Positions 6,106 through 48,660 of a DNA stretch of 54,922 nucleotides are shown one piece after another. Both the position numbers and the translations under genes were made by a program. The stretch lies in assembly GCA_009380095.1 (NCBI GenBank), contig WHSL01000012.1, positions 1 through 54,922 of the forward strand. Direction: 5' to 3'. Every line of letters begins with the position of its first letter. The first letter of the stretch is position 1. The DNA is from Streptosporangiales bacterium (lineage in GTDB: Bacteria; Actinomycetota; Actinomycetes; Streptosporangiales; Streptosporangiaceae). The notes under the pieces were generated by a model. That model was not told where the DNA came from. It was given only the letters and a program-made list of their open reading frames with translations, and made no database searches.

Positions 6106-6198
6106 CACCGGGGGGTCCGGGGGGTCGTCCCCCCGGGATATATGGACGCGGGCCCCACGGGGAAGGTGCCGAAGGCACCGACCACGCAGGGCCCGGCC
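6082..6198 (-). repeat. dispersed double-hairpin element, copy 1
   Basis: Read on the minus strand just after the nrdJ stop, it runs: a CTGCGTGGTC box, hairpin GGTGCC-TTC-GGCACC, a variable ~25 nt, hairpin CCGGGGGG-ACGA-CCCCCCGG, then GGTGTCCTCGGGCGCTGCG. The same order and orientation relative to transcription occurs after lexA (11755-11870) and after the leuS leader peptide (15832-15906). A role as a terminator or RNA-stabilising 3' end is likely. Confidence 0.75.
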
Positions 6199-11739: not shown

Positions 11740-11754
11740 GCGAAGGCGGAACCG

Positions 11755-11870
11755 GGGCCGGGTCCTGCGTGGTCGGTGCCTGCGGCACCTTCCCGTCGGG
11801 CCCCGGTTCATTTTGCCCGGGGGGACGACCCCCCGGACCCCCCGGTGTCCTCGGGCGCTGCGCGCCCTGT
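11755..11870 (+). repeat. dispersed double-hairpin element, copy 2
   Basis: It begins 16 nt after the lexA stop and carries hairpin GGTGCC-TGC-GGCACC and hairpin CCGGGGGG-ACGA-CCCCCCGG. Flanks CTGCGTGGTC and GGTGTCCTCGGGCGCTGCG are nearly identical to copy 1 after nrdJ. The remainder of the gap to 12037 is GC-rich with no gene. Confidence 0.75.
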
Positions 11871-13237: not shown

Positions 13238-15730
13238 TCAGCCGGGGACGATGTTGACCAGCTTGGGGGCGCGGACGATGACCTTGCGCGGCGGCGCCCC
13301 GTTCAGGTAGCCCTGCACCTTCTCCGAGGCCAGCGCCAGCGCCTCCAGGTCGGCGTCGGCGATGTCCGGCGGCACCTCCAGCCGGTCGCGGACCTTCCCG
13401 GCCACCTGGACCACGCAGGTCACGGACTCCCGCACCAGCAGCTCGGGCGAGGCCACCGGCCAGCCGGCCCGCGCCACGCTGGGCTCGTGGCCCAGCCGGT
13501 GCCAGCCCTCCTCCGTGGTGTACGGCGCGTACATCGACAGCATGACCGCCAGCGCCTCCGCCGCCTCGCGTACCGCCGGGTCCCCCGCGCCCGGGCCGGC
13601 GTCGATCGCCCGCCGGGCGGCACTGGTCAGCTCCATCAGGCGCGCCACCGCCACGTTGAACCGCTGCCCCTCGACCAGGCGGGTGACCTCGTCGATGGTG
13701 CGGTGGGTGACCTTGCGCAGCTCGACGTCACCCGCGGCGAAGTCCACTCCCGGCGCCGAGCCCGCACCGGCCTCGGCGAACACACGGAACGCCCGGCCCA
13801 GGAACTTCGCGGACGCGGCCGGCGAGACGTCGGCCCAGTCGATGTCGTCCTCGGGCGGACCGGCGAAGATCATCGTCAGCCGTACGGCGTCCACGCCGTG
13901 CGCGTCGATCTCCGCGCCCAGGTCCACGCCGTTGCCCAGGGACTTCGACATCGCCTTGCCCTGGTTGATGACCTGCCCCTGGTTCAGCAGCCGGGTGAAC
14001 GGCTCCGTGAAGCTCACCATCCCCATGTCGTACAGCACCTTGGTGAAGAAGCGGCTGTACAGCAGGTGCAGGATGGCGTGCTCGACACCGCCGACGTACT
14101 GGTCGATGGGCCCCCACTTGGCGACCTCGGCCTCGTCGAACGGGCCGCCGGTGAAGTGCGGCGAGCAGTACCGCAGGTAGTACCAGGACGAGTCGACGAA
14201 CGTGTCCATGGTGTCGGTGTCCCGTTTGGCCGGGCCGCCGCACTTCGGGCAGTCCACGTTCACCCAGGACTTGGCCGCCGCCAGCGGCGACTCGCCCTTG
14301 GGCGCCAGGTCGGCGCCGCGCAGGTCCTCCGGCAGCGTGACCGGCAGCTGGTCGTCCGGGACCGGGACCTCGCCGCACGCCTCGCAGTGGATGATCGGGA
14401 TCGGCGTGCCCCAGAAGCGCTGCCGGGACAGCAGCCAGTCGCGCAGCCGGTAGTTGACCGCGCCGGTGCCGGTGCCGCGCTCCTCCAACACCTCGATGAT
14501 CTTGGCGATCGCGTCGCCCTTGTTCAGCCCGTCGATCGCCGGGGAGTTCACCAGCATGCCGTCGCCGGTGGTGGCGACGCCGCTGTCGGTGGGGTCGGCC
14601 TCGCCGGTGTCCACGACGACCCGGACGGGCAGCTCGAACCTCCGGGCGAAGTCCAGGTCGCGCTGGTCATGCGCGGGGACGGCCATGATCGCGCCATGAC
14701 CGTAGTCGGCCAGCACGTAGTCGGCCGCCCAGACCGGGATGCGCTCGCCGTTGACCGGGTTCAGCGCGTACCGGCCCAGGAAGACCCCGCTCTTCTCCTT
14801 CTCGGTGGACTGCCGCTCGATGTCGGACAGCCGTGCCACCTCGGCCTTGTACGCCTCGAATGCCTCACGCTGCTCGGGCGCGCAGATCTCCTCGGCCAGC
14901 GCCGCGTCCGGCGCGACGACCATGAACGTGGCGCCGTACAGCGTGTCCGGCCGCGTGGTGAAGACGTGCACCGGCTCGTCGCGGGCCTCGATGGCGAACG
15001 CGACGTCGGCGCCGGTGGACCGGCCGATCCAGTTGCGCTGCATCAGCAGCACGCGCTCGGGCCAGCCCCCCTCCAGCTGCTTCATGTCCTCCAGCAGCCG
15101 GTCCGCGTACTCGGTGATCTTGAAATACCACTGCGTCAGGCTGCGCCGTACGACCTCGTAGCCGCAGCGCTCGCACCGGCCGGCGATGACCTGCTCGTTG
15201 GCCAGCACCGTCTGGTCGTTGGGGCACCAGTTGACCAGGCCGCCCTTGCGGTAGGCCAGGCCGCGCTCATAGAAGCGCAGGAACAGCCACTGGTTCCAGT
15301 GGTAATACTCCGGGTCGCTGGTGTGCAGCCGGCGGGACCAGTCGAAGGAGGTCGCGTACCGGCGGAAGGACGCGGCCTGGGTGTCGATGTTGGAGTACGT
15401 CCACTCGGACGGGTGGGTGCCGGCCCGGATGGCCGCGTTCTCGGCGGGCAGGCCGAAGGAGTCCCAGCCGATCGGGTGCAGCACGTTGTGCCCGCGCTGG
15501 AACCAGTACCGCGCCACCGCGTCGCCAATGGCGAACGCCTCGGCGTGCCCCATGTGGAGGTCGCCCGAGGGGTACGGGAACATGTCCAGGATGTAGGTGC
15601 GCGGCCGGTCGTCGCCCGGCTCCTCGCTCGCCCGGAACGGGTTCAGCTCCGCCCAGGCTGCCTGCCACTTGTCCTGGACGGTCCGCGGGTCGAAGGGGTC
15701 GGCCGCGGAGCTGCCGTCGACGGCTGTCAT
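13238..15730 (-). CDS. leuS: leucyl-tRNA synthetase
   Basis: An 830-aa class I synthetase that charges tRNA-Leu. HMGH (variant of HIGH) is at residues 59-62, and the KMSKS loop appears as [12 protein letters not shown]1 editing domain lies between, with [18 protein letters not shown] and the [16 protein letters not shown] block. The length is normal. ATG 15730 gives [15 protein letters not shown], matching the family's start; the frame stays open upstream but there it overlaps the terminator and repeat of the leader. Expression is very probably controlled by leucine-dependent attenuation in the 228-nt leader (see 15791-15958). Confidence 0.97.
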
Positions 15731-15790
15731 CGGTTGTGTCCTCACCGGTCTGTTCCTTGCGGTCGGCCTTCTCGAGCGCCGGTCGCCCAT

Positions 15791-15816
15791 AAAAAGACCC
15801 CTCGACACGCGAGGGG
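15791..15816 (-). terminator. intrinsic terminator in the leuS leader (attenuator)
   Basis: On the minus strand: stem CCCCTCG, loop CGTGT, stem CGAGGGG, then TCTTTTT. This is a textbook Rho-independent terminator, rare in such a GC-rich genome. It is placed between the leader peptide and the leuS start (61 nt before the ATG), where termination would silence leuS. Confidence 0.9.
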
Positions 15817-15831
15817 TTGCCGCGCTGACTG

Positions 15832-15906
15832 CCGGGGGTCCGGGGGTCGCCCCCCGGGCCAACACTGCGGGCAACAGGGAAGGTGCCGGAAGGCACCGAC
15901 CATGCG
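15832..15906 (-). repeat. dispersed double-hairpin element, copy 3
   Basis: Hairpin GGTGCC-TTCC-GGCACC and a G/C hairpin (GGGGGGCGACCCCC type) lie in the same order as copies 1 and 2, starting 17 nt after the stop of the leuS leader peptide. It is shorter and more diverged than the others and lacks the TCCTCGGGCGCTGCG tail. It may act as the mid-leader hairpin of the attenuator. Confidence 0.65.
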
Positions 15907-15922
15907 AGCCCGCCTCGGCTCG

Positions 15923-15958
15923 TCAACGCGGCTGGCTAAGGAGCAACCGCGACCGCAT
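15923..15958 (-). CDS. leuS leader peptide MRSRLLLSQPR
   Basis: An 11-codon reading frame whose codons 5-7 are TTG CTC CTT, three consecutive leucines that include codons rare in this genome. It ends in TGA 17 nt before the first leader hairpin. A candidate -10 TACCCT (15965-15970) puts the transcription start exactly on the A of the ATG, so the peptide would be translated from a leaderless RNA. Slow decoding under leucine or charged-tRNA shortage would let the leader fold away from the terminator at 15791-15816. The peptide itself needs no further role. Confidence 0.8.
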   Translation of the reverse strand: MRSRLLLSQPR

Positions 15959-16013
15959 GGTCACAGGGTAGCGCAGTGACCGACAGGTCCGGCGGGATCG
16001 TCGCCTTACCGGT

Positions 16014-16652
16014 ATGCGGGACACGCCCCACGGCGGGTTCCATCAAACCAACCACGACCCATTGAATTCGGTGGACTTCCAGAAGTCCGACGCCCTCGGC
16101 CGCGCCGCGCGGGCCGGCTACACCGGCAAGGTCACCGTCGTCCGCGACCTCGGCAACACCAGCTACGGCAAGTACGTGGTGATCGACCACGGCGGCGGCT
16201 GGACCACCCTGTACGCGCACCTCAACTCGTTCGCCGTCTCCGTCGGCACCAGCGTCACGACCGGCGCGCGGATCGGCGCGGTGGGCAGCACCGGCGGCTC
16301 CACCGGGCCGCACCTGCACTTCGAGGAACGGTACAACGGTTCCGCGCAGCGGGTGGTGGTGGACGGCAAGTCCATCGCCTACTACGGGGACACCAGCGTC
16401 ACCAGCCAGAACTGCAGCGGCGGCGGGGCGGTGGGGACCGTACGGACCTCCGGCGCCAACCTGACGGTCCGCTCCGGCCCGGGCACCTCTTACAGCTCGG
16501 CGGGCTCGCCGGCCAACGGCGCCACGGCCAACATCTCCTGCCAGACCAACGGCGAGACGGTGACCGGCACGTTCGGCACGTCGAAGATCTGGGACAAGAT
16601 CGGCGCCGGCAAGTACGTCTCCGACGCCTACGTCTACACCGGCTCCGACGGT
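16014..16652 (+). pseudogene. M23 peptidase with SH3b domain, truncated at both ends
   Basis: This encodes most of a secreted LytM/M23 peptidoglycan endopeptidase. The first zinc motif is [11 protein letters not shown] (His and Asp ligands) and the second is HLHFEE, followed by an SH3-like domain ([22 protein letters not shown] ... [14 protein letters not shown]). The signal peptide is absent: the frame starts only about 14 residues before the first zinc ligand, next to the leuS promoter. The normal C-terminal residues are missing too, since the frame runs straight into the signal-peptide tail of an amidohydrolase at about 16652. The catalytic residues survive, but without export the product should be inactive. 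Confidence 0.7.
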
Positions 16653-17478
16653 ACGGGCGCCGCGGCCATCGCCGGCCTCGGCGTGCCGGCCGGCCCGGCG
16701 CACGCGGCCACCGGCCCGCCGGGCCAAGCCGGGCCGCCCACAGCCCGGGACGGATCCGGGGGCCTCGCCCTGGTGAACGGCAAGATCCTCACCCAGGACG
16801 GCAAGGGCACGGTCGCCGCGGACGTCCTGATCCGGGCCGGCAGGTTCGCCGAGGTCGGCCGGGGCCTGCGGGCGCGCGCGGGCGGCATGCGCGTGATCGA
16901 CCTGAGGGGCCGTACGGTCGTCCCCGGGATCATCGACAACCACAACCACCTCGTGCTGATGGGGCTGCGGCCCGGCTTCCACACGCCGCTGGAGAACGCG
17001 GGCTCGATCGCCGATGCGCTGGCGACGCTCAAGGAAGCTGAAGGCGCTCGGCGGTGGCCTGTCCCTCACCGGCTGGCGCTACCTGGCCGGAACCGCGGAG
17101 AACAACGGCCCGCCGTTCCGTACGATCCTCGACAGCGGAATCCACGCCGGCATGAGCTCCGACGGCATGCAGATCGCGCCGATGAATCCATGGCTGCACA
17201 TGTACTACGCGACGACCGGCAGGAACGCCACAGGCGACCTGATCAACGACGGGCAGCAGATCACCCGCGACGAGGTGCTGCGCCTGTACACGGCGGACAA
17301 CGGCTGGTTCACCCGAGAAGAGGACGTGACCGGCACCATCGAGCCGGGCAGGTACGGCGATCTCGCCGTGCCCAGCGACGACTACCGGACGGTGCCCGAC
17401 GAAGGGCTCAAACGGATCCGGTCGGTACTGACCGTGGTGGGCGGCCGGGTCGTCCACGACGCCGGGTCGCTCCGCTGA
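16653..17478 (+). pseudogene. exported amidohydrolase (YtcJ-like), 5' loss and large internal deletion
   Basis: The fragment begins with the end of a signal sequence ([17 protein letters not shown]). It continues with the amidohydrolase N-terminus, [15 protein letters not shown], then [14 protein letters not shown] with the HxH metal pair. At about 17030 the family sequence jumps roughly 350 codons and changes frame. It resumes as [34 protein letters not shown], then [29 protein letters not shown] to the end at 17478. The middle of the TIM barrel, with most metal ligands, is gone. The 16014 frame read mechanically ends at 17519 in nonsense. Confidence 0.78.
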
Positions 17479-17515
17479 CACTGCCGGCGGAGCCCCGGCC
17501 GGTGGAGATCACCGC

Positions 17516-19063
17516 CTAACGCAGCTCGCGCTTGAGGATCTTGCCGGTGGCGGTCATCGGCAGGCTGTCCACGAACTCCACCACCCGGGGGTACTTGTAC
17601 GCGGCCATCTGGTCCTTGGCCCAGGTGATCAGCGCGTCCTCGGTGAGGGTGGAGCCGGGCGTGCGGATCACGTACGCCTTGATCTCCTCGCCGTGGCTCT
17701 CGTGCGGGAACCCGAGCACCGCGGCCAGGCTGACCTCGGGGTGCGTCATGAGCACCTCCTCGATCTCCCGGGGGTACACGTTGAACCCGCCCCGGATGAT
17801 CATGTCCTTGGCGCGGTCCACGATGAAGTAGAAGCCGTCGGCGTCGCGGGTGGCGATGTCACCGCTGCGGAACCAGCCGTCGCGCATCACCTCCGCGGTG
17901 GCCTCGGGGCGGTTGTAGTACCCCTTCATGACGTTGTGGCCCTTGATGGCGATCTCGCCCGGGCCCTCACCCTCGACGTCGTTCCACTCCTCGTCGACGA
18001 GCTTCATCTGTACGCCCCAGATCGGGAAGCCGACGGAGCCCGGCTTGGTGGGCTTGTGCCGCTGGTTGAAGGACGCGACGGGGCTGGTCTCCGAGAGGCC
18101 GTACCCCTCGAGGATCTTGACGCCGAACACGCTCTCCACGTCCTTGAGCACCTCGAGCGGGAGCGCCGAACCGCCGGAGACCGCGGTGTGCAGGTTCGCC
18201 GCGATGCCCTTGATGTCGTGGGAGTCACGGTCCTCGGCGGTCAGCAGCGCCCAGTACATGGTGGGGACGCCGGCGAACGTGGTGACCTTCTCCTGCTCCA
18301 TCAGGCCGAGCGCGGCGGTCGGCTCGAAGCGCGGCATCAGCACGAGGGTGGCGCGGCGGCGGAAGCCGGTGTTCATCACGACCGTCTGGCCGAAGGAGTG
18401 GAACAGCGGGAGCGCGCCGAGCAGCACGTCGTGGCCGCTGTCATCGAACATGTCGTCCGAGACCATCGCGTTGATCAGCATGTTGGCGTGGCTCAGCTCG
18501 GCGCCCTTGGGCCGGCCGGTGGTGCCGCTGGTGTAGAGGATGACCGCGGTGTCGGTCGGCTCGGTGACGATGGTGTCGAACGTGCCGGGCATGCCGTCCA
18601 GCGCCGCCCAGAACGACTCGGCGCCGGGGATCGTGGACTCCTTGGCGCCGGCGGTCGCGGGCAGCGCGATGAACATCTCGCACCCCTCGACCTCGTCGAA
18701 GCCCTGCTTGCCGCGCTCACCCAGCGGCAGCTCGGGGGTGCCCTCGAAGCAGAAGAAGGCCTTCGCCTCGGAGTCGGCCAGATGGTACGCGATCTCCGGC
18801 CCGGTGAGCAGCACGTTCAGCGGGACCACCGCGGCGCCCGCCTTCAGCGCGCCGAAGTAGACGAACGGGAAGTACGGCAGGTTGGGACAGGCCAGGGCCA
18901 CCCGGTCCCCCGGGCGGATGCCGCGCGCGACGAGCAGCGAGGCGACCTGATTCGCCAGCATGTCGACCAGCGAGTACGGGAGACGGAGGTCGCCGAAGAC
19001 CACGGCCTCGCGGTCCGGCGCCTCACGGGCACTGTCCTCGAGCACGACGGCAAGGTTGAGCAT
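17516..19063 (-). CDS. long-chain acyl-CoA synthetase / AMP-dependent ligase
   Basis: A 515-aa adenylate-forming enzyme that activates a carboxylic acid to its CoA thioester via an acyl-AMP. Motifs in order: P-loop [16 protein letters not shown] (A3), GYGLSETSP (A5), the A7/A8 hinge [26 protein letters not shown] split around Asp/Arg, and the A10 lysine in TGKILKREL. Substrate class (medium/long-chain or aromatic) is not resolved. ATG 19063 has AGGAGG 8 nt upstream and a predicted 94-nt leader from the palindromic divergent promoter at 19164-19200. It is monocistronic. Confidence 0.92.
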
Positions 19064-48502: not shown

Positions 48503-48577
48503 CTCCGGAGGGTCGGGGACCCCCAGGTAGGTGTGCTGCGGAGGGTCCGCGCTTGCCGCGCACGGTCGTGTCGCGGC

Positions 48578-48660
48578 CCGGTCGTCACCCGGGGCACCCC
48601 ACCGCGGAGCGAGGGTTGCCGGCCAGCAAGCCGGGGCTTGACGCTGGCACTCATGACCTG
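48578..48660 (-). ncRNA. SAM-IV riboswitch aptamer
   Basis: On the minus strand the RNA begins CAGGTCATGAGTGCCAGCG and continues with CAAGCCCCGGCTTGCTGGCC, CGGCAACCCTC, CGCGGTGGGGTGCCCCGGG and closes TGACGACC. This order is the SAM-IV consensus known from actinomycetes. The predicted transcription start coincides with its first base. The 75 nt between aptamer and start codon contain two GACCCTCCG words, either of which can pair with the GGAGG ribosome site, so translational control is likely. Confidence 0.88.

Follow-up and report, generated by a model that had tools for sequence, protein, structure and literature searches.

The leuS locus and its upstream region

The window analysed here, a 54,922-nucleotide stretch of a Streptosporangiales contig considered at its full length, carries the leucine–tRNA ligase gene leuS on its reverse strand (13238–15730). 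The encoded protein scores 939 bits against TIGR00396, for which the cut-off is 548.4, and among the matches listed the closest named relatives for leuS come from Microbispora, Microtetraspora and their kin. The start codon of the gene is the ATG at 15730, with the start ATGACAGC being kept in four related loci (L016, L026, L031 and L037); because of this conservation, an alternative in-frame start at 15790, directly after a T-run, was rejected.

Upstream of leuS and on the same strand lies a short ORF of 11 codons plus stop (15923–15958), which reads ATG CGG TCG CGG TTG CTC CTT AGC CAG CCG CGT TGA from 15958 to 15923 and encodes the peptide MRSRLLLSQPR. Similar peptides, MRSRLLLSRPR and MRSRLLLSPPR, are found in its kin. 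The three consecutive Leu codons TTG CTC CTT (15938–15946) are the candidate sensor codons. A −10 box, TACCCT (15965–15970), is situated 6 nt 5′ of the ATG, which would place a leaderless transcription start at 15958. An initial annotation of this DNA had pointed out the 11-residue ORF with its Leu codons behind TACCCT, and these are indeed present in the sequence as described.

Between the ORF and leuS there is an intrinsic terminator, comprising the hairpin ACCCCTCG-CGTGT-CGAGGGGT (15797–15817) and a CTTTTT tract (15791–15796). It is found by a terminator scan, by folding and by the covariation described below, and is the sole terminator-like site in the region 15600–16200, where 0.4 such sites would be expected from shuffled sequences. 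The T-run ends 60 nt from the leuS ATG, and not the 61 nt given by the initial annotation, which had correctly recognised the terminator itself.

The 228-nt leader folds more stably than its shuffled counterparts (z = −4.33; 0 of 200 shuffles were as stable), and the fold contains a helix that the initial annotation had missed, here termed P1. The 5′ arm, GCCGCGTTGAC (15922–15932), begins 5 nt past the last Leu codon and so takes in the end of the ORF; it pairs with the 3′ arm, GTCAGCGCGGC (15819–15829), and these arms form the two sides of a proposed antiterminator. A single unpaired base, 15818, separates P1 from the terminator, and within the P1 loop there is a two-hairpin repeat of about 88 nt (15831–15918). 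The best structure predicted for the complete leader additionally brings the opening codons of the ORF (15957–15949) into pairing with 15758–15767, which lies between the terminator and leuS. This pairing is independent of P1, and would be expected to impede a ribosome on the finished read-through RNA.

No Rfam family, T-box included, matches the leader at gathering scores, the only match in the window being a SAM-IV riboswitch located elsewhere (48544–48658, reverse strand, 105.3 bits). A more permissive Rfam search (E ≤ 0.5) of the leader elements of seven loci likewise gave no match to the elements, with two matches falling outside them. The ORF at 16014–17519 (forward strand), which is divergent from leuS, looks composite, resembling M23-type peptidases, GsmA and amidohydrolases in turn, all far below the cut-offs. 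A frame at 17014–17478 is amidohydrolase-like by eye and has no NCBIfam match.

Conservation of the leader in leuS upstream regions

The upstream regions of leuS were collected from 50 of 61 genomes of the family (30 loci plus 20 fetched, with the source genome included) and from 80 named loci. One locus, L066, was removed as its upstream DNA is lacking, giving 129 upstream regions. Removal of duplicates left 120 distinct upstreams and 80 distinct leaders. The loci L001–L008, which derive from a search with the repeat, were excluded from this set. A leader was defined as a short ORF with three consecutive Leu codons (LLL) behind a TAnnnT box. By this definition, 87 of the 129 upstreams have a leader, as do 83 of the 120 distinct ones, the window included. 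When the same triple test was applied to the 120 distinct upstreams with other amino acids, AAA was found in 4 and PPP in 1, and none of the other 17 amino acids gave any hit.

The remaining 42 of the 129 upstreams have no LLL leader. Among them, 17 match the covariance model R1 (E ≤ 0.0082), which was built from the leuS leaders of the window's family and of the named loci and includes no named Streptomyces; these 17 have fewer or interrupted Leu codons, or appear to be decaying. The terminator finder gave a score of at least 15 in all 87 LLL leaders and at least 20 in 86 of them, compared to 38 and 6, respectively, of 261 shuffled sequences. A score of at least 20 was also reached in 14 of the 17 upstreams with an R1 match but no LLL. 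In the 25 upstreams with neither LLL nor R1 match, which include those of the named genera Nocardiopsis, Streptomonospora, Murinocardiopsis, Thermobifida and Microbispora, not one reaches a score of 15.

We see, then, that leader and terminator are retained or lost as a pair. The comparative test proposed by the initial annotation supports its reading of the leaderless Leu-codon peptide and terminator as a leuS attenuator, in that ORF, Leu codons and −10 box recur together in the distinct upstreams.

Promoter spacing and sensor codons

The distance from the −10 box to the leader start codon is 6 nt in 77 of the 80 distinct leaders and 7 nt in two, and was scored as 0 in one, perhaps as an artefact of the search pattern, a spacing of 4–9 nt having been allowed when leaders were selected. 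It is by its fixed position that the −10 box is supported. No clear −35 box is seen: in 66 of 80 related leaders, TTGACA is matched at 2–3 of 6 positions at best, and a sigma-70 promoter scan gave no site at the leuS leader. A Shine–Dalgarno-like motif, sought as five 5-mers before the leader start, occurs in none of the 80 distinct leaders. The fixed 6-nt spacing and the lack of such a motif are what leaderless translation would show.

The choice of Leu codons in the leaders is far from that in the genes they precede. At the third Leu position, 70 of 80 leaders have CTT; at the second, CTT is used in 44, CTC in 27 and CTG in 9. For the named loci, CTT accounts for 90 of 192 leader Leu codons versus 53 of 4670 in 70 leuS reading frames, which were taken from stop to stop and hence contain some codons from further upstream. 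Of the 62 Leu codons of leuS in the window, 60 are CTG, 1 is CTC, 1 is TTG and none is CTT, and none of the sensor codons in the leader is CTG. CTC is less rare when three reading frames of the window are pooled (CTG 117, CTC 38, TTG 10, CTT 5, TTA 1). It has been predicted that rarely used regulatory codons make attenuation sensitive (PMC1183508), and the enrichment of CTT in the leaders fits this expectation for regulatory codons.

Covariation and geometry of P1 and the terminator

An alignment, A1, was made of 45 leaders including the window; L115 was left out, the terminator finder having picked another hairpin there. Standard pairs occupy 95.6% of the cells of P1 and the terminator, and changes on both sides are seen in 11 of the 19 pairs. 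Cells with a double change number 77, where shuffles give 19.3 and structures slid along the alignment no more than 16. RNAalifold independently recovers both helices. The window itself scores just 45.6 bits with R1 despite being one of the rows of the model, presumably due to the repeat insertion.

These data bear on two readings in which the leader is not a transcription attenuator. In one, the short ORF is a chance occurrence and the terminator does no more than close a transcript coming from upstream. A terminator-like site is no great rarity, given the shuffled expectation for such a region stated above, but the closest long ORF upstream that has family matches (16014–17519) is on the opposite strand, LLL leaders recur at fixed spacing in 83 of 120 distinct upstreams, and both helices covary. 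We give this reading practically no credence. The other invokes translational control, as in the LEU element of leuA, whereby the run of Leu codons would be paired with the leuS ribosome-binding site. The CTCCTT of the sensor run is akin to an anti-Shine–Dalgarno sequence, and such a stem is proposed for leuA in PMC1262725. This would not account for the covarying terminator in leuS leaders, the Leu codons vary at synonymous sites (as in the counts for the second codon above), and the full leader fold, computed for the window only, has no pairing between the Leu codons and the leuS Shine–Dalgarno sequence. Translational control of this kind is therefore very unlikely.

In 65 of 80 leaders P1 begins 4–5 nt past the last Leu codon (0–13 nt searched), and the gap between P1 and the terminator is 0–1 nt in 76 of 80 (0–5 nt searched). 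The loop of P1 measures 3–30 nt in 78 of the 80 leaders; the two longer ones are those of the window (92 nt) and L138 (99 nt). When P1 is fully extended, it shares bases with the terminator in 25 leaders (27 if bulged extensions are allowed), abuts it in 37 and stops 1–2 nt short of it in 18, the window being among these last.

An antiterminator that shares bases with its terminator was thus not retained as the general design, as overlap by 1 nt or more is limited to 25 of 80 leaders, the window not among them. Since P1 adjoins the terminator with no base in common, exclusion by base pairing would not account for switching in the window. The initial annotation had recommended looking for conserved LLL codons together with a terminator/antiterminator pair. 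The codons are borne out in 83 of the 120 distinct upstreams, and a base-sharing pair was not found in the window.

Ribosome position and a model for attenuation

The 80 leaders were folded with a ribosome at different positions, modelled by barring all bases from pairing as far as 12 nt from where the A-site codon begins. A study of ilvB1 uses a 26-nt footprint centred on the codon (PMC13236596). The mean probability of the eight likeliest P1 pairs exceeds 0.5 in 79 of 80 leaders when the A site holds the first or second Leu codon, in 68 when it holds the third, and in none when it holds the stop codon. The order in which P1 is predicted to form across these ribosome positions is that expected of an antiterminator. 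The probability of the terminator falls below 0.5 in only 4 of 80 leaders in the free state, in 1 each with Leu1, Leu2 or Leu3 in the A site, and in 2 with the stop codon there. As the terminator is likely (P ≥ 0.5) in 76–79 of 80 leaders wherever the ribosome stands, P1 and terminator are thermodynamically compatible, and a thermodynamic switch between them was rejected for the same reason. We also considered an anti-antiterminator hairpin over the Leu codons, which was not kept, its signal being weak: 57 of 80 leaders exceed the mean of their own shuffles (0.647 versus 0.572), with a mean MFE z of −0.68.

Overall, we put the probability of the explanation set out below, a ribosome-mediated transcription attenuator for leuS, at roughly 0.85. 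The start site, the stalling, the direction of the response, the role of P1 as antiterminator and the dependence of leuS on charged tRNA-Leu are elements of a model that we infer as follows. Transcription would begin at or next to the ATG, such that a ribosome could load straight onto the leaderless ORF. Under a shortage of Leu-tRNA, the ribosome would stall with its A site on a Leu codon, and a stall at the first or second of these would leave the 5′ arm of P1 free. P1 could then form beside the terminator and impede it, allowing RNA polymerase to read into leuS. With an ample supply of Leu-tRNA, the ribosome would reach the stop codon and cover the 5′ arm, so that P1 could not form, the terminator would form alone and leuS would be turned down. 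The cell would thus most likely make more leucyl-tRNA synthetase when charged leucine tRNA runs short.

How a helix might impede a neighbour with which it shares no base is a matter for conjecture, and our guess is a steric block next to the RNA exit channel, for example with P1 keeping the 5′ arm from being drawn in. Hindrance by position is suggested by the terminator being predicted beside P1 in nearly all leaders while bases are shared in only 25 of 80. The antiterminator role is itself proposed for P1, in line with the published models for ilvBNC and ilvB1.

The same attenuator could in principle work with P1 in the opposite role, aiding termination, in which case a late stall within the Leu run would prevent P1 and leave a poor terminator. 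In its favour, the two helices can coexist and are placed next to each other in the manner of a coaxial stack, and when the A site holds the third Leu codon, P1 stays at or below 0.5 in 12 of the 80 leaders, as this arrangement would have it. The leucine-rich state is harder to reconcile with it: a ribosome at the stop codon masks P1 in 80 of 80 leaders, which would give read-through in times of plenty. The ilvB models of Corynebacterium glutamicum and Mycobacterium tuberculosis, moreover, assign the antiterminator role to the hairpin formed on stalling. We consider a P1 that aids termination unlikely, and retain P1 as the putative antiterminator.

A repeat inserted in the P1 loop

The repeat at 15918–15831 is found at 18 further places in the genome at E ≤ 1e-3 (19 with the copy in the leader), and eight copies were aligned. 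Within the window, copies lie at 15831–15918, 6111–6195 and 11749–11842. The element is GC-rich and forms two hairpins, GGTGCC-GGCACC followed by CCCGGGGG-CCCCCGG. The similarly long loop of L138 has only short pieces in common with it, the best being 85% over 20 nt.

The initial annotation had taken this repeat for a single hairpin embedded as the middle one of the attenuator, but it is two hairpins in the loop of P1. A working part for the repeat in the attenuator was rejected given the loops of 3–30 nt in 78 of 80 leaders, and it is not a functional middle hairpin, since in 78 of the 79 further distinct leaders the loop is too short to contain it. The P1 loop has instead been expanded by a natural insertion, with both arms still paired.

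The same design upstream of other genes

Whatever the downstream gene, R1 matches 166 of 296 genomes of the class (149 of the 267 of good quality). We classified 111 elements, namely 110 among the matches listed in this class-wide search, which had stricter filters, plus L170. Of these, 76 precede leuS and 5 precede ilvB (by tblastn; one ilvB was confirmed by NCBIfam), counts that do not represent independent events, as two of the 76 leuS elements equal rows of A1 and others are near-duplicates. A further 28 elements precede genes matching a citramalate synthase (cimA) seed, 26 of them with 64–100% identity. The motif EGGWPG is present in 25 of these 26 cimA genes, the other being cut by the contig end, and four were checked against TIGR00977. 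The two seed matches at only 31–33% identity are leuA, in L208 and in L180 (TIGR00973, 667.9 bits). Another locus, L241, runs off its contig. Five elements, L175, L195, L207 and L213 (no terminator found) and L217 (contig end), are counted within the 111 and are absent from the geometry.

The sensor codons differ according to the gene. Two Leu codons in succession are present in 74 of 76 leuS elements (one exception has a single Leu and the other is cut off), two Ile codons in 26 of 26 cimA elements, and mixed Ile, Leu and Val codons in 5 of 5 ilvB elements; among the ORFs starting within a 26-nt stretch, the script takes the one with the longest I/L/V run, a choice biased towards runs though not towards Ile at the expense of Leu. 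The helices of the cimA leaders also covary: they are 95.7% paired, and double-change cells number 51 against 20.0 in shuffles, while the number of pair types is not above that in shuffles (21 versus 22.3). The source genome has such a cimA leader itself, VPYCLNIIGGRAG, with ATT ATT followed by P1 and a terminator (L170, G000:C329:12079-12196; 35.9 bits; TIGR00977). In seven genomes of the family (G006, G021, G029, G041, G044, G045 and G055) the leuS upstream has no R1 match and a cimA element is present.

Leucine biosynthesis genes also appear in this collection. In L180 (G094:C27:88769-88880), a leader MTNLLLT with P1 and terminator precedes leuA, behind which there is a leuB-like frame; in having P1 and terminator it differs from the terminator-less LEU element. 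L207 (G223:C53:72295-72407) has the LEU-type leader MRTVLLLLSGRDETSF before leuC (TIGR00170, 448.1 bits, a 300-aa piece), and both this element and L208, before leuA, look like LEU-type leaders rather than members of the leuS/cimA design.

A description of a cimA leader was not found by text searches of open-access literature, subscription papers being mostly outside this scope, so this is no proof of novelty; the two papers that came up are, by their titles, on other subjects, and the word 'citramalate' is absent from the main texts of PMC8079986, PMC10272879 and PMC11109978. Tentatively, and with more doubt than confidence, we suggest that a single attenuator chassis might serve branched-chain genes throughout the class. 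It would consist of a leaderless start, 2–4 sensor codons, P1 at a distance of a few nt past them and a terminator 0–1 nt behind P1, with the target set by swapped codons (Leu codons before leuS and leuA, Ile codons before cimA, and a mix of Ile, Leu and Val codons before ilvB) and with P1 acting mainly as a steric antiterminator.

Comparison with known attenuators

In the trp, his and leu attenuators of Escherichia coli, regulatory codons, hairpins and an intrinsic terminator are combined such that the position of the ribosome is the signal. Their leader peptides have a ribosome-binding site, and the antiterminator shares a strand with the terminator. For the trp and his attenuators, regulatory codons and ribosome position are treated in PMC1183508.

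The initial annotation had judged the combination at leuS worth study; attenuation by a leuS leader had been proposed before. Classical attenuators were predicted before leuS of Streptomyces coelicolor and Streptomyces avermitilis in 2005, with the antiterminators underlined in a figure (PMC1262725). In 2021, leuL2 of Streptomyces lividans TK24, with the peptide MRAVRLLLSEPR, was reported before leuS as a leaderless transcript followed by a hairpin and U stretch (PMC8079986). R1 recovers this exact peptide in 13 of the 111 elements (e.g. L142 and L151–L154), with P1 and terminator and before leuS, and we take these 13 as probably Streptomyces on the identity of the peptide. The window and the Streptomyces leuS leaders have in common a Leu-rich leader, a peptide of the form R-LLL-S-x-PR, a terminator and leuS downstream. 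The window differs from leuL2 in its genus, in its peptide and in the 92-nt P1 loop that comes from the two-hairpin repeat. In short, attenuation by a leuS leader is already known from Streptomyces, and the window is a further case, from another genus and with an inserted repeat. The arrangement is widespread in actinomycetes.

Two other systems resemble the window in having a leader with branched-chain codons and an antiterminator hairpin that forms on stalling, namely ilvBNC of C. glutamicum (PMC11857589) and ilvB1 of M. tuberculosis (PMC13236596). For ilvBNC, the stall-formed antiterminator hairpin has mutational support, and the transcription start lies one base away from the start codon of the leader (PMC11857589). 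For ilvB1, replacing the regulatory codons abolishes induction, and a ribosome at the stop codon masks the antiterminator (PMC13236596). The antiterminator and terminator of ilvBNC overlap by a boundary trinucleotide, whereas P1 and terminator in the window have no common base. Differently from both systems, the gene that the leader in the window would regulate encodes a tRNA synthetase, and the sensor codons are for Leu only.

The LEU element of actinobacterial leuA also has a run of Leu codons, as in the leader of the window (PMC1262725). The S. lividans example, leuL1, is described as having no typical terminator (PMC8079986). The leader of the window differs in that a terminator is present and in that its best fold has no stem between the Leu run and a ribosome-binding site. 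As told in PMC1262725, codon changes in S. coelicolor had no effect for ilvB, and for leuA had an effect inconsistent with classical attenuation. By analogy, these results would count against the attenuator reading of the leuS leader.

Taken together, our data extend a known form of control of an essential tRNA synthetase, one that has received little study, to a group far wider than the two Streptomyces of the 2005 prediction, and give the leuS leader a covarying structure and a covariance model. They also indicate that in genomes of high GC content leucine would be sensed through a rare codon, CTT. The P1/terminator design with its exchanged sensor codons, of which the source genome also has an Ile version before cimA, provides a ready test of how an antiterminator that would merely stand beside its terminator could work.
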